From Acidobacteriota bacterium (lineage in GTDB: Bacteria > Actinomycetota > Acidimicrobiia > Acidimicrobiales > RAAP-2): a DNA stretch of 41,828 bases. The notes below the pieces were generated by a model. It searched no databases. It was not told the DNA's origin and saw nothing but the letters and a program-made list of their open reading frames with translations. Below, in pieces: positions 3,852 to 17,191 of the stretch (its first letter is position 1; each line of letters begins with the position of its first letter). The translations under genes were made by a program, and so were the position numbers. The stretch is from the NCBI GenBank assembly GCA_028873575.1, contig JAGWHY010000010.1, positions 1 to 41,828 of the forward strand, read 5' to 3'.

Positions 3852-4643
3852 ATGGCCGATTCCGCCCCGCCGCGACCCGCCGCCACGATTCTGGTACTGC
3901 GCGATCGCGACCAGGGCTTTGAGGTGTTGATGTTGCGGCGCAACCTGCGCAGTGACTTCGTGGGTGGCGCGTACGTTTTTCCAGGTGGCGGGGTCGACCC
4001 CGGTGACGCGTCGCCCAGAACACACGCCCGGATTTTGGGATTGAGTGACGCGCAAGCGTCGCGCCGACTGGGACTGGTGAGTGGGGGTCTCGCCTACTAC
4101 GTCGCGAGTGTGCGCGAGCTCTTCGAAGAAGCGGGTCTCCTATTGGCCTGTGACGCGTCGGGTCAGAGTGTGGCGACGAGTACGGCGCTCGCCCGCGCGT
4201 TAAGCCACGAACGCGAGGCTCTGAACGCCGGCGACCTCGAATTCGTCGATCTGTTGGAGCGCGAGGATCTCTACGTGGACGCCACGGCGCTGCGGTACCT
4301 CGCCCATTGGGTAACGCCCGTGGGGCCTCCGCGTCGCTACGACACGCGATTTTTCGTCGCCCGAGCGCCAGCCGATCAAGTGGCCGCCCACGACCAAGGT
4401 GAGACCGTGGCGCACCGGTGGCTCCGCCCGCGCGACGCGCTCGAGGCGCACCGGCGTGGCGAGTTCGAGATGATCTTTCCGACGGTTCGAAATTTGGAGG
4501 CTCTGATTCAGTTTTCCCGGGTCGATCAGGTGCTGGAGTACGCGGAGGGACTGGACGCGATTCCTCGAATCGAGCCTCAACTCGTTGAACGTGGCGGCGT
4601 CGTCGTCCCCGTCATCGAGGGCGAAGAAGGTCCCTCGTCCTAG
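3852..4643 (+). CDS. Nudix hydrolase (NUDT19/CoA-pyrophosphatase-like)
   Basis: 263 residues. The N-terminus RPAATILVLRD and EVLMLRRNLRSDFVGGAYVF leads to the Nudix region: FPGGGVDPGD at 43-52 and, after an insertion of about 35 residues, RELFEEAG at 88-95, the metal-binding REx2EExG helix. A long insertion between the two halves of the Nudix box is known in the NUDT7/NUDT19 branch, some of whose members hydrolyse CoA or acyl-CoA. Later segments (WVTPVGPPRRYDTRFFVARA, then WLRPRDALEAHRRGEFEMIF) also match that branch. The substrate cannot be fixed from sequence. It appears to be a single gene with its own start region and is followed after 68 bp by erpA. Confidence 0.85.
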   Translation: MADSAPPRPAATILVLRDRDQGFEVLMLRRNLRSDFVGGAYVFPGGGVDPGDASPRTHARILGLSDAQASRRLGLVSGGLAYYVASVRELFEEAGLLLACDASGQSVATSTALARALSHEREALNAGDLEFVDLLEREDLYVDATALRYLAHWVTPVGPPRRYDTRFFVARAPADQVAAHDQGETVAHRWLRPRDALEAHRRGEFEMIFPTVRNLEALIQFSRVDQVLEYAEGLDAIPRIEPQLVERGGVVVPVIEGEEGPSS

Positions 4644-4711
4644 GGGCGGGGTCGTGATTTAACCCTCGTTCGCTACGATGGGACGAGAAGTTCGTAAAGG
4701 AGCTGACCACG

Positions 4712-5077
4712 ATGAGCACTACCGACGTCCAAATGAGCCAGAAAGTCACCGAGCCCATTGTCCTCACGGAACAGGCCGTCACCAAGGTCGCCGAATTGAT
4801 CGCCGACGCCGGCGTGGATGAAGAGTTGGCGCTGCGCGTGGCCGTGAAGCCCGGCGGTTGCTCGGGCTTTAACTACGACATGTACTTCGACTCGGAGTTC
4901 GCGAACGACGACGTCGTGCGGGAGTTCTCGGGCGTGAAGGTGGTCGTCGACCCCTCGAGCGCCGAACTACTGAACGGTTCCACCCTCGACTTCACCGACG
5001 GACTTCAGGGCGCGGGCTTTCACATTACGAACCCCAACGCGACGCGCACCTGCGGTTGCGGCAACTCCTTTAGCTAG
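4712..5077 (+). CDS. erpA: Iron-sulfur cluster insertion protein (ErpA/IscA, HesB family)
   Basis: 121 residues with ATG at 4712 and a Shine-Dalgarno sequence AAAGGAG 9 nt upstream. The three cluster-ligating cysteines of A-type carriers are in place: C50 in KPGGCSGFNY and C114/C116 in TCGCGNSFS. The rest follows the family (VAELIADAGVDEELALRVAV, then STLDFTDGLQGAGFHI). A-type carriers receive [Fe-S] clusters from the scaffold system and hand them to apo-proteins; in actinobacteria the single ErpA is usually essential. A -10-like TACGAT at 4674-4679 is in reach. The gene for RidA follows 5 bp later, suggesting co-transcription. Confidence 0.93.
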   Translation: MSTTDVQMSQKVTEPIVLTEQAVTKVAELIADAGVDEELALRVAVKPGGCSGFNYDMYFDSEFANDDVVREFSGVKVVVDPSSAELLNGSTLDFTDGLQGAGFHITNPNATRTCGCGNSFS

Positions 5078-5082
5078 GCGCC

Positions 5083-5448
5083 GTGAGCGCGCCGGTCGGT
5101 CCCTACTCGCCATGGCGTCGCGCCGGTGAGTGGGTGATTCTCTCGGGACAGATCGGCTTAGTCGCGGACGCGACCTCGCCGACGCTGATTGAGGGGGGCG
5201 CCGCCGCTCAGTTACGTCAGGCCCTCGCGAACGCCAAGGTGCTGTTGCGTGAGGCGGGCACGGACTTTGACGCCGTCGTCAAGGCGACGCTCTATCTGGT
5301 CGACATGGACGACTTCGCCGCGTGTAATGAGGTGTGGGTGGAGAGTTTCGCGCCGCCGCGACCGACGCGCTCGACGGTCGCCGTGAAGCAGTTACCGCTG
5401 GGCGCGCGCGCCGAGGCCGAACTGTGGGCCTACGCGCCGTCGGCGTAG
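5083..5448 (+). CDS. ridA: RidA family enamine/imine deaminase
   Basis: 121 residues, start GTG at 5083, five bases after the erpA stop. RidA-family marks are GPYSPWRRAGEWVILSGQIG near the N-terminus, the KATLYLVDMDDFAACNEV segment, and the catalytic arginine in RPTRSTVAVKQLP followed by the glutamate of AEAELWA. RidA hydrolyses reactive 2-aminoacrylate and related imines made by PLP enzymes such as serine/threonine dehydratase, protecting those enzymes. It is shorter at the N-terminus than many homologues (about 125-130 residues) but appears complete. Its 3' end overlaps the convergent glnR-like gene by 19 bp. Confidence 0.88.
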   Translation: MSAPVGPYSPWRRAGEWVILSGQIGLVADATSPTLIEGGAAAQLRQALANAKVLLREAGTDFDAVVKATLYLVDMDDFAACNEVWVESFAPPRPTRSTVAVKQLPLGARAEAELWAYAPSA

Positions 5449-6131
5449 TCGTTGCTGATCCCGAACTTGTAGCCGACCGAACGGACCGTTTGGATTAAGT
5501 GGGCGTACTCTTCGCCCAGTTTCGCGCGCAGCCGTCGTACGTGAACGTCGACCGTGCGCGCGCCACCGTAGTACTCGTAGCCCCACACGCGAGAGAGCAA
5601 CGTCGCGCGGGTAAAGACGCGATTGGGATTGGTCGCGAGGAAGCGCAGTAGTTCGTACTCCATGTACGTCAGGTCCATGACGCGACCGGCAATCGTCGCT
5701 TGATAGGTTTCGAGATTCATCGAGAGTTCACCGTGTTCGAGTCGCGGCGCGACATTCTCATTGCCCGCGCGACGCAGTCGGTGACGCAGACGCGTCGCGA
5801 GCTCGCTGACGTCGAAGGGGCCGACCACGAAGTCGTCGAAGAGGTCCTCGCGGAACGTCAACTCGTCAAGTTGGTAGTGATCGAGCAGCAAAATCACTGG
5901 CCCCACGCCTCGCTCGCGCGCGCGCAGTTGACGACAGAGATTCATCGCGTCGTTGAAGGGAATGGCGGCGGCGTTGATCACCGCGCCGGCGAAGCCGTCG
6001 CTTGGTTCGAGCGCGGTGATTTCGTTGAGGCGCCCGGTGGCCGCCACCGCCGGCGTTACGCCCGTGACGTCGAAGGCCTTGCGCACGGGCCCGTCGCACG
6101 ACGGCACGCACAACACGACGTCGATACTCAC
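5430..6131 (-). CDS. OmpR-family winged-helix regulator, GlnR-like, with degenerate receiver
   Basis: 233 residues starting at GTG 6131, which overlaps the TGA of the glutamine synthetase upstream (GTGA, 6128-6131). A longer frame to 6218 lies wholly inside that gene. The C-terminal DNA-binding domain (LDLTYMEYELLRFLATNPN in the family form; here MDLTYMEYELLRF, FTRATLLSRVWGYEYYGGAR, TVDVHVRRLRAKLG, IQTVRSVGYKFG) is close to actinobacterial GlnR, the global nitrogen regulator. The receiver is atypical: the acidic pair after beta-1 is replaced (VVLCVPS), the phospho-Asp position is N53 (AVINAAA) and the lysine before PF is glycine (VVGPFD). Phosphorelay control is therefore unlikely. The genetic coupling to two glutamine synthetases strengthens a nitrogen role. 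It could be a GlnR paralogue rather than the orthologue. Confidence 0.82.
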   Translation of the reverse strand: MSIDVVLCVPSCDGPVRKAFDVTGVTPAVAATGRLNEITALEPSDGFAGAVINAAAIPFNDAMNLCRQLRARERGVGPVILLLDHYQLDELTFREDLFDDFVVGPFDVSELATRLRHRLRRAGNENVAPRLEHGELSMNLETYQATIAGRVMDLTYMEYELLRFLATNPNRVFTRATLLSRVWGYEYYGGARTVDVHVRRLRAKLGEEYAHLIQTVRSVGYKFGISNDYADGA

Positions 6132-7426
6132 AAGAGGGGGAGGTAGCGCTCGAGCTCGAAGGGGGTCACCTGGCCGCGGTAGGCGTTCCACTCCGCGCGC
6201 TTGTTGCGGAGGAACCATTCGACCAGGTGACTGCCCAAGGTCTCTTGGAGCAGGGTGGAGTGTTCCATCAGATCGACGGCCTCGCCGAGTGACTGGGGGA
6301 GGCCCGCCTTAGCGACGCCCTCCTTGGGCAACGGGTAGTTGCCCGCGACGCCACGAAGTCCGGCGGCCAAGATGACCGCGAACGCTAGGTAGGGGTTGGC
6401 GGCCGGGTCGGGTGCGCGGTACTCCAAACGAGTCGAGTCGATGCGACCGGGCTTGACCGTCGGTACGCGTACCAGCGCGGCGGAGTCGAAGCGGGCCCAC
6501 GTCGCGTTGACCGGCGCCTCGCCACCGGGAATCAGGCGTTTGTAGGAGTTCACCCACTGGTTCGTAATCGCCGTGATTTCGGGCGCGTGCGCCACCAGTC
6601 CCGCGATGAACTTTGACGCGACCTCACTGAGTCCGTAGGTCTTCTCACCGATGAAGGCGTTCTTCTCATCACGCCACAGTGAGAGGTGGGTGTGCATACC
6701 TGAGCCCTGAACGTTCGCGAGCGGCTTGGGCATGAAGCTCGCCGTCACGTTCGATTGGCGAGCCAACTCTTTGACGACGTGACGCACCGACATCACGGTG
6801 TCGGCCATGGTGAGTGCGTCGGTGTAACGCAGGTCAATCTCGTGCTGACCGGGGGCGTCTTCGTGCTGGGCGTGTTCTACGCCTATGCCCATCTCTTCGA
6901 GGGTGAGCACGGTGCGACGGCGAAGTTGGCTACCGGTGTCGTCGGGTAAAAGGTCGAAGTAACTTCCACGATCAATGGGACGAGGATCGGTCGTCACGTC
7001 GAGGCCTTGGAAGTAGAAGAACTCAATCTCGGGCGCGACGAAGAAGGTGTAGCCCTGTTGGCGCGAGGTGTCGAGCACCCGACGGAGCTGCTGACGGGGG
7101 CAGCCCTCAAAGGGGGTGCCGTCAATGTTGACGATGTCGCAAAAAACGCGCGCCACGCCGGCTCCCTCTTCATACCAGGGGAGCAGCTGGAAAGTCGTGA
7201 GATCCGGTCGAGCCAGGACGTCGGACTCCTGCACGCGCGAGAAACCGTCGATCGCGCTGCCGTCAAAGGTCATTCCCTGGTCGAGCGCGTCCTCGAGCTC
7301 GGCGGGCGTGACGTGAAAGGCCTTGTGGCGACCGAGCACGTCGGTGAACCAGAGCTGGACGAAACGTACCCCACGTTCTTCGACGGTGCGAAGGACGTAC
7401 TGGGCCTGGCTCTGCATGGGGGACAT
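6128..7426 (-). CDS. glnA: Glutamine synthetase type I (GSI-alpha / GlnA2-like)
   Basis: 432 residues from ATG 7426, which has GGGAAGG upstream. The frame is open back to 7888 but that part lies in the GSII gene. N-terminal beta-grasp domain: RFVQLWFTDVLGRHKAFHVT and the FDGSAIDGF loop. Catalytic domain: APEIEFFYF, APGQHEIDLRYTDAL, GSGMHTHLSLW, NQWVNSYKRLIPGGEAP and EYRAPDPAANPYL, together the ATP, metal and glutamate sites. The length, and the C-terminus ending soon after FFLRNKRAEW, fit the short GSI-alpha group. The adenylylation loop of GSI-beta is not evident, so control by GlnE is not expected. It makes glutamine from glutamate, ammonia and ATP. In Streptomyces similar GlnA2-like paralogues can act on polyamines, so the substrate is not certain. 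Confidence 0.92.
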   Translation of the reverse strand: MSPMQSQAQYVLRTVEERGVRFVQLWFTDVLGRHKAFHVTPAELEDALDQGMTFDGSAIDGFSRVQESDVLARPDLTTFQLLPWYEEGAGVARVFCDIVNIDGTPFEGCPRQQLRRVLDTSRQQGYTFFVAPEIEFFYFQGLDVTTDPRPIDRGSYFDLLPDDTGSQLRRRTVLTLEEMGIGVEHAQHEDAPGQHEIDLRYTDALTMADTVMSVRHVVKELARQSNVTASFMPKPLANVQGSGMHTHLSLWRDEKNAFIGEKTYGLSEVASKFIAGLVAHAPEITAITNQWVNSYKRLIPGGEAPVNATWARFDSAALVRVPTVKPGRIDSTRLEYRAPDPAANPYLAFAVILAAGLRGVAGNYPLPKEGVAKAGLPQSLGEAVDLMEHSTLLQETLGSHLVEWFLRNKRAEWNAYRGQVTPFELERYLPLL

Positions 7427-7470
7427 TCTCGCACCTTCCCGGCGCCTCGCGCGAAGGCCCCTGCTCAAGC

Positions 7471-7504
7471 ACGAAGCCCCGCCGCCGCAGCGGCGGGGCT
7501 TCGT
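7471..7504 (-). terminator. 15-bp perfect stem-loop between GSII and GSI genes
   Basis: A perfect 15-bp G+C-rich stem (ACGAAGCCCCGCCGC at 7471-7485 against 7490-7504) closes a 4-nt loop, CGCA. It begins 8 nt after the GSII stop and ends 44 nt before the GSI start. There is no U-tract on the minus strand. Actinobacterial terminators often lack U-tracts, so this may be a terminator or an attenuator/RNA-stability element setting the GSII:GSI ratio. Confidence 0.75.
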
Positions 7505-7512
7505 GGCGAGGT

Positions 7513-8607
7513 CTAGCGGCGAGCGGCCTTCTTGGCCGGCGCCTTCTTCGCGACCTTTTTGGCCGCCGTCTTCTTCGCCGGCGCCTTCTTGGCCGCGGCC
7601 GGCTTGGCCGCGGCGCCACAGATGGTCTCGGTGATCAATCGGGTAACGACGTAGGGGTCCATGTTGGCGTTGGGACGACGGTCCTCGAGGTAGCCCTTCT
7701 TGTCGCGGGCGACACCGCCGGGAATACGAATCGACGAACCGCGGTCCGAGACGCCGTAGGAGAACTTCGACCAGTGCGCCGTCTCGTGCGCGCCGGTGAG
7801 GCGCTCTTCGATGCCCACGCCGTAGTTCTTGATGTGCTCGTCGACGCGCGTGCCCAACGCCTCGCAACCCGCGATGATCGCGCTCCATCCACCGTTCGCC
7901 CGCATGGCTTTGGTTGAGAAGTTGGTGTGCGCGCCCGCGCCGTTCCAGTCGCCCTTGACGGGCTTGGCGTCGAAGCTCACTTCAACTTCAAACTCTTCGG
8001 CAATGCGCTCAAGCAGCCAACGAGCCGTCCACATCTGGTCGCCCATCATCACCGGGCTCAACACGCCCAGTTGGAACTCCCACTGACCCATCATGACCTC
8101 GGCGTTGGTGCCCTCAATGGCGAGGCCGGCGCGCAGGCACGCGAGCGTGTGGGCTTCGACGATGTCGCGACCCGGCATCTTCGAGCCGCCGACGCCGCAG
8201 TAGTACGGGCCCTGGGGGGCGGGAAAGCCCACCTCAGGCCATCCGTAGGGACGACCGTCCTTGAAGAAGGTGTACTCCTGCTCGATGCCGAACATGGGCT
8301 CTTGACTCGCGTACTTCTTCTGCGCTTCCACGGCCGCGGCGCGCGTGTTCGTCGCGTGCGGGGTCATGTCGGGGTTCAACACCTCGCACATAACCAGAAC
8401 GTCGTTGGGTCCGCGCAGCGGGTCCGGGCACGTGAAGACCGGCATTAACACGCAGTCCGAAAAGTGACCGGTGGCCTGGTTCGTACTCGAGCCGTCGAAG
8501 CCCCACACGGGCGGCTTCTTGCCGTCGCCGACGATCTTGGTCTTGCTACGCAGCTTGCGCGTCGGCTCGGTTCCGTCAATCCAGATGTACTCAGCCTGAT
8601 ACGACAA
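7513..8607 (-). CDS. glnII: Glutamine synthetase type II (eukaryotic-type) with lysine/alanine-rich C-terminal tail
   Basis: 364 residues from ATG 8607. Type II marks: AEYIWIDGTEPTRKLRSKTK, WGFDGSSTNQATGHFSDCVL, FGIEQEYTFF, GWPEVGFPAPQGPYYCGVGG, WEFQLGVLSP, GDWNGAGAHTNFSTKAMR and DRRPNANMDPYVVTRLITET. These build the decameric GSII active site, which makes glutamine and is not adenylylated. The catalytic part ends near residue 331. The last ~33 residues are almost only A, K, P, R and T (AKKAPAKKTAAKKVAKKAPA type), like histone H1 tails. Bacterial GSII proteins normally lack this. The tail reads in the same frame without a break, and codon use is like the neighbours. A GlnR-like box lies about 85 bp upstream. 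Downstream come a stem-loop, the GSI gene and the glnR-like gene. Confidence 0.93.
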   Translation of the reverse strand: MSYQAEYIWIDGTEPTRKLRSKTKIVGDGKKPPVWGFDGSSTNQATGHFSDCVLMPVFTCPDPLRGPNDVLVMCEVLNPDMTPHATNTRAAAVEAQKKYASQEPMFGIEQEYTFFKDGRPYGWPEVGFPAPQGPYYCGVGGSKMPGRDIVEAHTLACLRAGLAIEGTNAEVMMGQWEFQLGVLSPVMMGDQMWTARWLLERIAEEFEVEVSFDAKPVKGDWNGAGAHTNFSTKAMRANGGWSAIIAGCEALGTRVDEHIKNYGVGIEERLTGAHETAHWSKFSYGVSDRGSSIRIPGGVARDKKGYLEDRRPNANMDPYVVTRLITETICGAAAKPAAAKKAPAKKTAAKKVAKKAPAKKAARR

Positions 8608-8691: not shown

Positions 8692-8707
8692 GTTAACCCC
8701 GTGTAAA
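8692..8707 (-). promoter_or_regulatory. Candidate GlnR-type operator upstream of GSII
   Basis: On the minus strand the site reads TTTAC-n6-TTAAC, close to the actinobacterial GlnR half-site pattern GTnAC-n6-GAAAC (consensus from established knowledge). It lies about 85 bp upstream of the GSII start, a suitable activator distance, and about 45 bp upstream of nadE on the other strand. Mismatches at the leading G positions and the small motif make chance occurrence possible. Confidence 0.3.
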
Positions 8708-8752: not shown

Positions 8753-10525
8753 GTGGCCACCCTTCGTCTCGCGCTCGCGCAGATGAACGCGGTGGTCGGC
8801 GGGCTAAACCAGAACGTGGAGACGCTGCGTCGATTTCGCACGCAGGCGAGCGCGTCGGGGGCTGATCTCCTGGTCACGCCGGAACTTTCGCTCATGGGCT
8901 ACCCGCCTGAGGATCTCTTGCTGAAAGAAGGATTTATTGAGTCGGGTGGATTCGCCCTGGCTGAGTTAGCCCTCGAACGCAATAAGGTCCCGATGCTGGT
9001 CGGCGCGGCGCTCGCCGAAGGCGCGTACGGTACGCGACTGGCGCCGGCGAGCGATTCGCGCGACGCCGGCGCCGGCGGGCCCGGTGACACCCGGCCGCGG
9101 ATCGCGAACGCCTTGGTCGCGCTCGGTGACGGTGACGTGGTGGCGGTCGCGACGAAACGACTCTTGCCGAACTACGACGTCTTTGACGAGCGTCGATACT
9201 TTCACCCGGGTCTCGGCGACCACGCCGTCGTCAACGTCAACGGCGTCGCGGTGGGGATGCTGATCTGCGAAGACGTGTGGATGAGCGACGGACCCGCCGC
9301 CCGTCTAGCCGCGCAGGGCGCGACGTTGCTCGTGGTCGCGAACGCCTCGCCCTTCGCGCGGGGCCGACGCGACGAGCGAGAGGCGATGCTGCGCGCGCGC
9401 GCACGCGAGACGAACTGCGCGATCGCCTACGTCAATCTCGTTGGTGGTCAAGACGAGCTGGTCTTCGACGGCCAGAGCGTGGTGGTGAACGAGCACGGTG
9501 ACGTGCTCGCGCGCGCCAGCGCGTTCAGCGAAGAGCTTCTGGTGTGCGACGTCGACGCCCGGGCGTCGCGCGTCGGCGTGACGCTAAAGGCGAACTATCC
9601 CCGCGACGAACGTCGCGCGCGCGCCGCGACCGCGAACCACGTCAGTGAGCCGCTCGACGACGTCGAGGAGATCTACGAAGCCCTGGTGATGGGTACGCGG
9701 GACTACCTGCGCAAGAACGGATTTCGCACGGCCATCATTGGACTTTCCGGCGGCGTGGACTCCTCACTGGTCGCGGCGATCGCCGTGGACGCGGTAGGCG
9801 CGCGGGCGGTGCGGGGCCTGGCGCTCCCGAGTCGCTACTCGTCGGACCACTCACTTGACGACGCGCGTGATCTCGCGCGTCGACTCGACGTGGAGCTCAA
9901 CGTGGTGCCGATTGAACCGGCGCACGCCGCGTTCGCGCAGATGCTGTCCGACGTGCTCGGGGGCGCGCCCGAAGGATTGACCGACGAGAATCTCCAGTCG
10001 CGCACGCGCGGCGTGCTGTGGATGGCGGTGTCGAACGCGACGGGGGCGATCGTGCTCACGACGGGCAATAAGTCCGAATTGGCGACGGGCTACTACACGA
10101 TCTACGGCGACTCGGCCGGTGGGTTCGCGGTGATTAAGGACGTACCTAAAACACTCGTGTACGAACTGTGCCGCTACCGCAACGAACGCGCGCGGCGCGA
10201 CGGTGACCCCGAACCCATTGCCGAGAGCGTGCTCGTCAAACCACCTTCGGCCGAACTGCGCCTCGATCAGCGCGACGACCAGTCGCTGCCGCCCTACGAA
10301 GAACTCGACCCCCTGCTCGAGCTCTACGTGGAAGACGACGCGACGGCCGACGAGATGATCGCGCTCGGCCACGATCCCGCGCTGGTTCGCCGTATTACGC
10401 GACTGGTCGACAACTCGGAGTACAAGCGTCGCCAAATGCCGCCCGGCGTTCGTATCTCGAAGAAGGCCTTCGGGCGCGATCGTCGCATGCCCATCACGAA
10501 CGCCTTTCGCGTGGAGGACCAGTGA
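8753..10525 (+). CDS. nadE: Glutamine-dependent NAD+ synthetase
   Basis: 590 residues, two domains. The N-terminal nitrilase-type glutaminase (1-270) carries the triad E44 (VTPELSLMGYPPED), K135 (VATKRLLPNYDVFDE) and C172 (GMLICEDVW), which releases ammonia from glutamine. The C-terminal ATP-pyrophosphatase domain has the P-loop SGGVDS at 332-337 and the family segments LALPSRYSSDHS, TTGNKSELATGYYT, YGDSAGGFAVIKDVPKTLVY and RQMPPGVRISKKAFGRDRRM. It converts nicotinic acid adenine dinucleotide to NAD+ with glutamine as nitrogen donor. It is divergent from the glutamine synthetase genes, so production and use of glutamine nitrogen meet at one intergenic region. The stop overlaps the next gene's GTG (GTGA). 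Confidence 0.96.
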   Translation: MATLRLALAQMNAVVGGLNQNVETLRRFRTQASASGADLLVTPELSLMGYPPEDLLLKEGFIESGGFALAELALERNKVPMLVGAALAEGAYGTRLAPASDSRDAGAGGPGDTRPRIANALVALGDGDVVAVATKRLLPNYDVFDERRYFHPGLGDHAVVNVNGVAVGMLICEDVWMSDGPAARLAAQGATLLVVANASPFARGRRDEREAMLRARARETNCAIAYVNLVGGQDELVFDGQSVVVNEHGDVLARASAFSEELLVCDVDARASRVGVTLKANYPRDERRARAATANHVSEPLDDVEEIYEALVMGTRDYLRKNGFRTAIIGLSGGVDSSLVAAIAVDAVGARAVRGLALPSRYSSDHSLDDARDLARRLDVELNVVPIEPAHAAFAQMLSDVLGGAPEGLTDENLQSRTRGVLWMAVSNATGAIVLTTGNKSELATGYYTIYGDSAGGFAVIKDVPKTLVYELCRYRNERARRDGDPEPIAESVLVKPPSAELRLDQRDDQSLPPYEELDPLLELYVEDDATADEMIALGHDPALVRRITRLVDNSEYKRRQMPPGVRISKKAFGRDRRMPITNAFRVEDQ

Positions 10526-14171: not shown

Positions 14172-14389
14172 GTCCCTATCTGACCACAATCGTGAAAGAG
14201 GGTGCAAGTGCGCCGCGCCGCGACGCGCGCGCGAGAGCCACCGGGACGTCGCCACGACGGAGCCAAGAAGCCTTGGGGCGACTGGTGATGGTGCCTCATG
14301 ACCCGAGGCGGGTCTCGCGCGTGTCTATTTTGTAGGGCGACAGCGCGGCGCCCCTCGGTGCCGCGCGCGAGTTCCGAGAGGTGGTGATC
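14172..14389. other. Divergent intergenic region trkA/topA
   Basis: No ORF with family-like sequence is seen. It is G+C-rich except around GTCTATTTTGTAG (14322-14334), which is the most promoter-like stretch for topA; no convincing -35/-10 pair can be assigned. A purine-rich GAGAGG (14375-14380) precedes the topA start. Confidence 0.5.
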
Positions 14390-17191
14390 GTGTCGCGGGT
14401 TCTCGTCATCGTTGAATCGGTCGCGAAGGCGACGCGCATCCAAGGGATGCTGGGGTCGGACTACATCGTGAAACCCTCCGTCGGCCACATTCGCGACCTT
14501 CCTCAGAGCGCGTCGGAGATCCCGCCCTCGGTCAAGGGCGAGAAGTGGGCGCGACTGGGCATCAACGTCGACGACCACTTCAAGCCCGTCTACGTCGTGT
14601 CGAGTGATCGCAAGAAAGTCGTCGCGGAGTTGCGCGACGCGCTCAAGCAGGTTGACGAGCTCTATCTCGCCACCGACGAAGACCGCGAGGGCGAGGCGAT
14701 CGCCTGGCACCTCCAAGAGGTGCTCAACCCTAAGGTCCCCGTGAAGCGCATGGTCTTTCACGAGATCACGCCCGCCGCGATCGCCAAGGCCGTCTCGGAG
14801 ACCCGCGACCTCGACCTGCGCTTAGTCGACGCGCAAGAAGGTCGGCGCTTTCTCGACCGTCTCGTGGGCTACGAAGTCTCGCCGGTGCTCTGGCGCGCCG
14901 TCGATAAGGCGCGCTCGGCCGGACGCGTGCAGTCGGTCGCGATTCGACTGGTCTGCGAGCGCGAGCGCGAGCGCATGGCCTTTCGATCGGCCACCTGGTT
15001 CGACGTGACCGCGACGCTGCGCGCCGGCGACGCCACCTTTGACGCCACCGTCGAAACGCTCAACGGCGCCGCCCTGGCCGCGTCGAAGCACTTCAACTCG
15101 TTGGGCCAGCTCGAGAGCAAGACGCCCGTGGAGACCCTGAGCGAAGTGAGCGCCGCGTCCTTGAGCGAGCGACTTCGTGGGGCGAGCGTGCGGGTCACGT
15201 CGGTCAGTTCGACGGCGCGCACGCAACGTCCCCAGCCACCCTTTATGACCTCGTCGTTGCAGATAGAGGCGAGCCGCAAACTCCGCTTTGACCCCGAGCG
15301 CACGATGCGCGCCGCCCAGCGTCTCTACGAGCAGGGGTGGATTACCTACATGCGTACGGACTCCACGACGTTGAGCGACGAGGCGATCTCGGCGGCGCGC
15401 GCCCAGGCCGCCGCGATGTTCGGTGACGACTACGTCGCCGACGGGCCACGCCGTTACGACCGCAAGGTTAAAAACGCCCAAGAGGCGCACGAAGCGATTC
15501 GTCCCGCGGGCGAGAGTTTCCGCACGCTGGACGAAGCGAGTGGTTCCCTCGGCGGCGACGAACTCGCGGTCTACGAACTCGTCTGGAAGCGCACCATCGC
15601 CTCGCAAATGGTCGACGCTCGACTCACCCAAGACAAGGTCACGCTCGCCGTCACGCTCGACGAGGTCGCCGGGTACGGCGACGGCGTTGCGGTTGGCCTC
15701 GCGGCCAGCGGGCTGCGGATTGAGTTTCCGGGCTTTCGTCGGGCCTACGTCGAGGGTACCGACGACCCCGAGGCCGAGCTCGCCGATCAAGAACGGCTCT
15801 TGCCGACGCTGCACGAAAACGACGAGCTACCGGTCGACGGCGCGCAGGCGAAGGGCCACGACACCCAGCCGCCCGATCGTTACTCCGAGGCGACGTTGAT
15901 CAAGAAGCTCGAGGACCTGGGGATTGGTCGTCCGTCGACGTACGCGTCGGTGATGAAGACGATCGATCGACGGGGCTACGTCTGGAAGAAGGGTAAGGCG
16001 CTGGTCCCGGCCTTTCGCGCCTTCGCCGTCGTCAATCTGCTCGAGCAGTACTTCGCCGACCTCGTCGACTACCGCTTCACCGCGGCAATGGAGGACCAAC
16101 TCGACGAAATCGCCCAGGGTCGCCAGGACTTAGAGCCGTGGCTACGGCGCTTCTACTTCGGCGACGACGGCGCCACCAGCGATTTCGCGCGTCTTGGTCT
16201 ACGCCGCGCCACCCACGAACAGATTGAGTTCGACTTCGCCGCCATTAATTCGTTGCCGCTCGGTACCGCGCCCGACGGTCTGCCGGTGGCGGTGCGCTCG
16301 GGGCGCTACGGCCCCTACCTCGTGCACGGCGAGGATCGGGCGTCGATCCCCGAGGCGACCGAGCCCGATTCACTCACCGTCGAGCGCGCGCTCGAGCTCT
16401 TGGCGGCGCCGAGCAACGACCGCGCGTTGGGCGTCGACGAGGCGACCGGTGAGGTCATCCACCTCAAGGCCGGTCGCTACGGTCCCTACGTACAGGTCGG
16501 CGAGATGACCGACCCCAAACAAAAGCCGCGCACGGCTTCCCTCTTTTCCACCATGTCGCCGGAGACCCTGACCCTCGACGACGCGAAGCGACTGCTGAGC
16601 CTGCCTCGCACGGTGGGCGTGCACCCCGACGACGGCGAAGCGATCTTGGCGCAGAACGGTCGCTACGGTCCCTACCTCACGTGGGGCAAAGAGACGCGTT
16701 CGCTCGAGACCGAAGACGAGATTTTTACCGTCGACCTCGAGCGCGCGTTGGCGCTCCTTCGTGAGCCCAAGGCTCGAGGGCGACGCGCGGCGGCCGGTCC
16801 GCTGCGCGACCTCGGTGAGGACCCGGTCACCGGTAAGCGTGTCGTGGTGCGCAGCGGACGCTTCGGGCTCTACGTAACTGACGGCGAGGTCAACGCGACG
16901 CTGCGCCTGGGCGACGCCCCCGAGACCTTGACACTGGACCGCGCGGGCGAACTACTCGCCGAGCGACGTAACGCGGAGCCGCGCACGAGCCCGCGCGCCG
17001 CGAAGAAGGCCACGAAGCGCGCCACCGCCGCCGCGAAGAAGAGCTCGTCCACCGCGACTAAGAAGACCACGGCCAAGAAATCCGCCGCGAAGAAGGCCCC
17101 GGCGAAGGCCAGTGCCGCCGACAAGCGCGGCGCACTGGCCCAAGGTCAGCAGGCGAACGCCGCGTTGGCGGCGCGTCTTCACGACGAGTGA
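14390..17191 (+). CDS. topA: DNA topoisomerase I with lysine-rich C-terminal tail
   Basis: 933 residues from GTG 14390, chosen because GAGAGG lies 9 nt upstream; GTG codons at 14381 and 14384 are alternatives. TOPRIM domain: RVLVIVESVAKATRIQGMLG with the catalytic glutamate, and TDEDREGEAIAWHL with the metal-binding acids. The active tyrosine is Y320 in WITYMRTDSTTLS. The gate domain continues to PSTYASVMKTIDRRGYV. The C-terminal half has four topoisomerase repeats marked by SGRYGPYLVHGED, AGRYGPYVQVGEM, NGRYGPYLTWGKE and SGRFGLYVTDGEV instead of zinc fingers. The end is a ~70-residue K/A/T-rich tail. Such tails are known in mycobacterial and Streptomyces TopA, where they increase processivity. 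It relaxes negative supercoils. The stop overlaps the tmk GTG. Confidence 0.96.
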   Translation: MSRVLVIVESVAKATRIQGMLGSDYIVKPSVGHIRDLPQSASEIPPSVKGEKWARLGINVDDHFKPVYVVSSDRKKVVAELRDALKQVDELYLATDEDREGEAIAWHLQEVLNPKVPVKRMVFHEITPAAIAKAVSETRDLDLRLVDAQEGRRFLDRLVGYEVSPVLWRAVDKARSAGRVQSVAIRLVCERERERMAFRSATWFDVTATLRAGDATFDATVETLNGAALAASKHFNSLGQLESKTPVETLSEVSAASLSERLRGASVRVTSVSSTARTQRPQPPFMTSSLQIEASRKLRFDPERTMRAAQRLYEQGWITYMRTDSTTLSDEAISAARAQAAAMFGDDYVADGPRRYDRKVKNAQEAHEAIRPAGESFRTLDEASGSLGGDELAVYELVWKRTIASQMVDARLTQDKVTLAVTLDEVAGYGDGVAVGLAASGLRIEFPGFRRAYVEGTDDPEAELADQERLLPTLHENDELPVDGAQAKGHDTQPPDRYSEATLIKKLEDLGIGRPSTYASVMKTIDRRGYVWKKGKALVPAFRAFAVVNLLEQYFADLVDYRFTAAMEDQLDEIAQGRQDLEPWLRRFYFGDDGATSDFARLGLRRATHEQIEFDFAAINSLPLGTAPDGLPVAVRSGRYGPYLVHGEDRASIPEATEPDSLTVERALELLAAPSNDRALGVDEATGEVIHLKAGRYGPYVQVGEMTDPKQKPRTASLFSTMSPETLTLDDAKRLLSLPRTVGVHPDDGEAILAQNGRYGPYLTWGKETRSLETEDEIFTVDLERALALLREPKARGRRAAAGPLRDLGEDPVTGKRVVVRSGRFGLYVTDGEVNATLRLGDAPETLTLDRAGELLAERRNAEPRTSPRAAKKATKRATAAAKKSSSTATKKTTAKKSAAKKAPAKASAADKRGALAQGQQANAALAARLHDE

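Follow-up and report, generated by a model that had tools for sequence, protein, structure and literature searches.

How might a bacterium with two types of glutamine synthetase (GS) keep both enzymes and their regulator in step? The question is raised by a gene row in a 41,828-nucleotide stretch of DNA (the window; GenBank assembly GCA_028873575.1, contig JAGWHY010000010.1, here contig C87), one of the 95 contigs of a 1.80-Mb genome that is 96.55% complete. On its minus strand, genes for a type II enzyme (GSII), a type I enzyme (GSI) and a GlnR-like regulator follow one another, with a hairpin between the first two. On balance, the sequence evidence favours this row being an operon at the core of ammonium assimilation in an Acidimicrobiaceae-like bacterium, in which autoregulation by GlnR would be combined with a partial terminator. 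Its parts are known but their arrangement is new, and it would represent a compact GlnR nitrogen circuit that brings together both enzymes, a candidate attenuator and the regulator. The most unusual part of the locus, which a first-pass annotation had not mentioned, is a lysine-rich C-terminal tail on GSII. The tailed GSII is a new form of a known enzyme: it belongs to central metabolism and yet ends in a histone-like tail.

The gene row and its conservation

GSII (7513..8607, minus strand, TTG start) has 364 residues and scores 593 bits against the NCBIfam GlnII model (NF041605; cut-off 500), which identifies it as a type II enzyme; its best match among solved structures is 4bax, over query residues 1–335. 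Downstream of a GC-rich hairpin in the spacer (7470..7505, minus strand) lies GSI (6128..7426, minus strand; 432 residues), which is matched by both Pfam Gln-synt_N and Gln-synt_C (361 bits for the latter) and, at 410.5 bits, falls below the NCBIfam GlnA cut-off of 429.15 (TIGR00653), being a divergent or short member. The regulator gene (5430..6131, minus strand; 233 residues) starts with a GTG at 6131, the GTGA sharing 4 nt with the GSI stop codon. The first-pass annotation had described GSII, a 15-bp perfect stem-loop, GSI and the overlapping GTG as one unit of enzymes and regulator; all of these parts were found, and the gene-order comparison that it had proposed as a check shows the unit to be conserved as a gene row.

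For this comparison, the best 80 of 587 confirmed GSII relatives were fetched with their flanks, giving 81 loci with the window (cited by L numbers). GSII, GSI and the regulator stand in tandem on one strand in 66 of the 80 relatives; the row is interrupted by contig ends in 11, and in three (L085, L090 and L109) the approximately 6 kb following GSII contains neither GSI nor regulator. An in-frame start codon that permits the 4-nt overlap between GSI and regulator is present in 55 of the 66 tandem relatives. The closest named relatives are metagenome-assembled genomes, titled mainly Acidimicrobiaceae, Acidimicrobiales or Actinomycetes, many of them with isolate names such as palsa, bog and fen; they are uncultured environmental bacteria. 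Some genomes were counted under two identifiers (L083 is L150, with an identical GSII core, and L197 is L146).

Other families belonging to the order or class show several arrangements. GSII diverges from GSI, which has the regulator behind it, in L128, L129, L130, L131, L132, L133, L137 and L155; the two GS genes are in tandem in L135 and L146, both of family f7; GSII is alone in L134; and in L136 it is accompanied by the regulator without GSI. Of 139 genomes surveyed across the phylum, 94 passed the thresholds for both a regulator match and a GSI match, although OmpR-type proteins of other kinds may account for some of the more distant regulator matches. In 26 of these 94 the regulator comes after GSI at a distance of no more than 450 bp, in 15 the order is reversed, and in 53 the two are not within 450 bp. 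The 26 comprise all 12 genomes of the class, that of the window among them, and 14 of the 82 other genomes with both matches, so that a GSI–regulator linkage peculiar to this genome was ruled out.

The GlnE family had no match in the genome, and GSI is therefore probably not adenylylated, as judged from gene content. A single PII gene lies directly behind amtB. A third, divergent GS-like gene is found on contig C8 (L126, 3131–4489) and is 31% identical to the window GSI. Its neighbours, judged by eye, are aldehyde dehydrogenase-, P450- and permease-like open reading frames (ORFs), possibly of amine catabolism, and it was set aside as a second assimilatory GSI because on these neighbours it is probably catabolic.

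Several individual loci depart from the common pattern. The GSII–GSI distance is about 1.4 kb in L108 and L112, compared with less than 130 nt elsewhere. In L090 and L109, GSII is tailless and a nadE match is absent as well as the GSI and GlnR-like genes. In L012, L067 and L097, of which the first and last are probably one contig, the GSI match falls into two pieces with 28–45 residues missing between them, owing to a deletion or to faulty assembly. A second GSI-like gene (34–35% identical) lies near the GSI–regulator pair in L128 and L138–L141, and in L138–L141, where no GSII was matched, it is divergent from GSI.

The C-terminal tail of GSII

The last 32 residues of GSII, encoded by 7516..7611 on the minus strand, are chiefly Lys, Ala and Pro. 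Whereas the core aligns with 4bax over 335 residues, this tail is an addition relative both to the 344-residue 4bax chain and to 13 GSIIs from outside the Acidimicrobiia. Among the 81 loci, 65 GSIIs continue for at least 12 residues past the core, 13 stop where the core does and three are cut off by contig ends. With L056 and L068 set aside (N in the assembly, and out of frame after it), there are 63 clean tails of 27–85 residues, composed of 27.6% Lys, 38.7% Ala and 8.1% Pro, with 5 of 2437 residues acidic and a net charge of +8 to +30; a few, for example those of L072 and L074, are Arg-rich rather than Lys-rich. The commonest five-letter motif, APAKK, occurs 83 times, which places the tails among lysine-repeat sequences. 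The tail is in frame in all 63 cases and the other two frames contain 31 and 21 stops; these clean in-frame cases rule out an assembly or frame artefact.

A tree of 96 GSII cores, 95 of them different, unites 67 tailed rows in a single supported clade. Tails are found at four further places (L148 with L149, L147 of the same family, L146 of family f7 and L027, where the tail is short), forcing five gains or losses, although two of these places are long branches and less sure. A phylum-wide reading of 28 GSII loci gave four long tails, apparently from genomes already counted (three tailed loci of the genus share their tails with L076, L092 and L112), and 24 GSIIs ending at most 14 residues past the core. 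AlphaFold assigns a predicted local distance difference test (pLDDT) score of at least 70 to 262 of the 364 residues, with some weak core loops, and a score below 50, about 35, to tail residues 337–364. The tail is thereby predicted to be disordered, and it is histone-H1-like. No description of a lysine-tailed glutamine synthetase was found in the open-licence literature.

Possible function of the tail

A plausible, if tentative, function for the tail is that of a nucleic-acid tether: a disordered polycation could attach the enzyme oligomer to polyanions, among which DNA or RNA is the most likely partner, and this attachment might be tunable through lysine acetylation. The actinobacterial proteins TopA, Ku, HupS/HupB and HrdB have been reported to contain lysine repeats, and Ku and HupB reportedly need their tails for interaction with DNA (PMC7398561). 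GSII resembles these proteins in carrying lysine-rich repeats near its C-terminus and differs from them in being a metabolic enzyme rather than a known DNA-binding protein. In the window itself, TopA (14381–17191, plus strand) has a lysine-repeat stretch near its C-terminus that resembles the GSII tail about 6 kb away. On contig C21, a 99-residue H1-like protein (L145, 4318–4617, minus strand) consists mostly of Lys, Ala and Pro repeats; its match to a histone H1-like family is weak (23.4 bits against a cut-off of 80). The reported DNA role of lysine repeats, together with these similar stretches, suggests the polyanion tether. The tail search in this genome found GSII and the H1-like protein; because it missed the TopA stretch it was not exhaustive, and the proposal that the tail is confined to GSII here was rejected.

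There is a considerable chance, somewhat short of even, that the tail is not a nucleic-acid tether and has some other role or little role at all. It could serve stability or solubility, sequester the enzyme on polyphosphate or membranes, bind acidic partners such as PII, offer a site for acetylation or pupylation, or be a neutral extension grown by slippage. The highly variable length and exact sequence of the tail, the tandem-repeat nature of its coding DNA and the existence of close lineages without it are all consistent with such a role, whereas the basic composition preserved in every clean tail, the frame that is never lost despite the stops in the other two, the several separate gains or losses on the tree and the similar repeats on TopA and the H1-like protein of the same genome argue against it.

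If the tail does tether GSII to nucleic acid, recruitment of a biosynthetic enzyme to the nucleoid could be tested on this example. A bolder proposal, which is speculative and in our estimate improbable, is that a GSII oligomer bearing many H1-like tails acts as a multivalent nucleic-acid-bound protein, held by them to the nucleoid, to RNA or to ribosomes. Glutamine synthesis, the nitrogen state and the activity of the chromosome or of GlnR would then be physically linked in a manner that lysine acetylation could switch. A metabolic enzyme would thereby have become a nucleoid-associated protein, apparently on more than one occasion.

A link between the tail and GlnR is made attractive by the report that acetylated GlnA1 enhances GlnR action in Saccharopolyspora (PMC10704036, PMC8007912), an effect for which the available text of these papers gives no explanation. 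If the tail tethers GSII to nucleic acid, it would offer a structural approach to the question of how a glutamine synthetase communicates with GlnR in Actinomycetota. The two cases share a glutamine synthetase and, as reported there, a lysine modification; they differ in that the Saccharopolyspora enzyme is GlnA1 rather than GSII, and no lysine tail is mentioned for it in that text. The candidate role of the tail as a GlnR partner is weakened by locus L085, in which other ORFs (4500–7700) take the place of GSI and the GlnR-like gene. The tail is kept in L085 without a neighbouring GlnR and is thus not tied to that GlnR.

The regulator and its putative binding sites

The C-terminal domain of the regulator is an OmpR-type winged helix (PF00486, E value 5e-26). 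No Pfam receiver domain was detected in the protein at an E value of 0.001, and none of the best 25 of its 38 NCBIfam matches, headed by MtrA and PhoB, reached its cut-off. The best matches among solved structures are 8hig and 8hih, which we take to be GlnR structures; the entry names are 'DNA-binding response OmpR family regulator' or 'Transcriptional regulatory protein'. In the structure alignments, Asp50 of GlnR is opposite Ala53 (numbered on a 232-residue reading of the protein) or, with a shift of one residue, opposite Asn52. The Ala53 column contains Ala in all 58 sequences, the window's included, and the Asn52 column contains Asn in 49, Asp in five and Ser in four. The window protein thus has no Asp at either candidate residue, as expected of a receiver without a usable phospho-acceptor. 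The genome has seven further OmpR-type matches, all 30–37% identical to the regulator, so that no second GlnR candidate emerges; a canonical glnR elsewhere, which the first-pass annotation had named as an outcome that would count against its reading, was looked for in this way.

Published GlnR boxes have the forms gTnAC-n6-GaAAC and t/gTAAC-n6-Gc/aAAC (PMC10704036), and patterns that fit them are found upstream of both GSII and amtB. A conserved block is seen in an alignment of 62 regions upstream of GSII. The corresponding pattern, TTYAC-n6-TTAAC or -GAAAC, is present in 66 of the 77 loci with 200 bp upstream (four loci with short flanks were excluded), compared with a rate of about 0.01 per 200 bp over all loci and both strands, true sites included. 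In the window the element reads TTTAC-n6-TTAAC and lies at 8692..8707 on the minus strand, 100 to 85 bp upstream of the GSII start codon; like the tail, it had gone unmentioned in the first-pass annotation. The box is located between −82 and −104 in 64 of the 65 loci not known to be tailless, and its second half is the canonical GAAAC in seven tailed loci (L078, L079, L084, L086, L093, L094 and L096). Upstream of amtB in the genus, four half-sites with an 11-bp period are present in 23 of 23 regions, drawn from 24 of 28 fetched loci (L179 was dropped as a truncated match).

The 11 loci without a box upstream of GSII are ten tailless relatives and L085. In L085 neither the strict nor the relaxed pattern is found before GSII, and a TTTCAC half remains; AmtB has no match in G019, which is probably the genome of this locus. 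This case of loss, in which the box is absent along with GSI and the regulator beside GSII, counts in favour of the autoregulated operon.

The hairpin and the proposed circuit

The hairpin between GSII and GSI has a perfect 15-bp stem at 7504–7471, extending to 16 bp at 7505–7470, and the loop TGCG. Perfect stems of at least 9 bp are present in 37 of 69 GSII–GSI spacers examined. For covariation analysis, 44 spacers (43 distinct) of 60–130 nt from tailed loci were aligned without structure information; the spacers of L067 and L097 (88 and 89 nt), both with the hairpin, are outside this set. RNAalifold predicts 12 pairs, nine of which show changes on both sides, and 92.8% of the cells can pair. 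The covariation score is 0.410, compared with 0.186 (standard deviation 0.014) for shuffled alignments and at most 0.134 when the partner strand is slid. This covariation indicates that the RNA structure is kept, beyond the DNA letters alone, and on this comparative evidence the hairpin is a covarying RNA element under selection. The GC-rich stem and short loop are those of an intrinsic terminator, short T-rich stretches follow the stem in many relatives, and stem-only 'I-shaped' ends have been described for GC-rich genomes (PMC8269248). The hairpin is accordingly read here as a candidate partial terminator or processing end.

In the proposed circuit, GlnR made from the operon would bind the box under nitrogen limitation and activate the GSII promoter. 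RNA polymerase would partly stop, or the RNA would be processed, at the hairpin, making GSII mRNA abundant, and GSI and glnR would be expressed by read-through in smaller, coupled amounts, closing the feedback loop. The first-pass annotation had suggested that the stem-loop sets a ratio between GSII and GSI/regulator, which it may do, and had also suggested direct autoregulation. The conserved row and the box before GSII now add to the latter suggestion. As none of 72 sequences comprising the GSII end and the GSII–GSI spacer contained a strict box, the simplest view is that the operon regulates itself through the GSII promoter; autoregulation stands as likely, on sequence grounds.

Several observations weigh against this circuit. 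A strict box is found in only two of 12 tailless relatives, at about −181, though most of them retain GSI and the regulator. In divergent relatives of the order, the relaxed pattern is present in just two of eight GSII/GSI spacers, so that the GSII box characterizes the lineage to which the window belongs and not the order as a whole. The GSII and amtB patterns were written after the alignments had been seen, and related promoters are not independent. A scan of the window's own genome with the GSII box (at most one mismatch) matched the GSII promoter alone; the pattern is too narrow for this purpose because the amtB promoter carries a different, fuller array. The hairpin is dispensable: among the 61 tailed loci that have GSI, the spacer measures just 28–47 nt in 13, and ten of these lack a perfect stem of at least 8 bp. 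No U-run follows the window hairpin, which leaves termination less than assured. The regulator, for its part, has no Asp at either place that could match Asp50, a residue reported to be unphosphorylated in GlnR and to have a structural role in dimerization (PMC10704036); this lowers the claim to GlnR membership without settling function.

The principal alternative to the autoregulated operon is that the row comprises two transcription units, GSII ending in a full terminator at the hairpin and GSI–glnR being transcribed from a constitutive promoter of its own in the GSII 3' end or spacer, so that the regulator would not control itself. The strong conservation and covariation of the hairpin would suit such an arrangement, as would the highly conserved spacer positions beside the GSI start (GAAGGTGCGAGAATG), which could hold a promoter and ribosome-binding signals, and the existence of the GSI–glnR pair in other families in which GSII is divergent or absent. 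The 28–47 nt spacers, however, leave little room for a promoter, and the GSII end and spacer contain no strict GlnR box; the alternative is considered unlikely, though it retains some weight. That the protein encoded beside GSI is an ordinary response regulator of the OmpR type, not GlnR, and merely a neighbour, as its sub-threshold matches to MtrA and PhoB and an N-terminal half not recognized as anything might suggest, is very improbable given its structural matches to presumed GlnR entries, the GlnR-like boxes upstream of GSII and amtB, its position adjoining GSI in every genome of the class with both genes and the lack of a closer GlnR candidate in the genome.

Comparison with known nitrogen regulators

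The locus resembles the actinobacterial GlnR regulon of Streptomyces and Mycobacterium as reported (PMC10704036) in having an OmpR-type regulator, both GSI and GSII, and a/b half-site boxes with an 11-bp period before GS genes and amtB–glnK. It differs in that the regulator gene is directly behind GSII and GSI in one row, in the lack of an Asp at the Asp50 position and in the GSII box, which is a single a–b pair usually with TTAAC in place of GAAAC. A search of the open-licence literature for GlnR in Acidimicrobi gave only work on glutaminyl-tRNA synthetase, and in a wider search on GlnR none among the matches listed named Acidimicrobiales.

In Bacillus, the genes for GlnR and GlnA are also in one operon and the enzyme feeds back on the regulator. 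Bacillus GlnR is a member of the MerR family (PMC10704036), however, and the OmpR-type regulator of the window is unrelated to it.

Neighbouring genes and database records

Four records, L047, L055, L060 and L104, are titled Saccharibacteria or Acidobacteria. The first three are probably mislabelled or misbinned contigs, because they lie deep within the Acidimicrobiaceae part of the GSII tree; L104 was too short for the tree.

The row is flanked by genes on the opposite strand. Divergent to GSII is nadE (8753..10525, plus strand), encoding an NAD+ synthase with a CN-hydrolase (glutaminase-type) domain; it is a frequent neighbour, and the upstream region is common to nadE and GSII. At the other end, a gene for a RidA-type protein (5083..5448, plus strand) is convergent and overlaps the 3' end of the regulator gene. 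It is likewise a frequent neighbour, and erpA, also convergent, lies with ridA downstream of the row.

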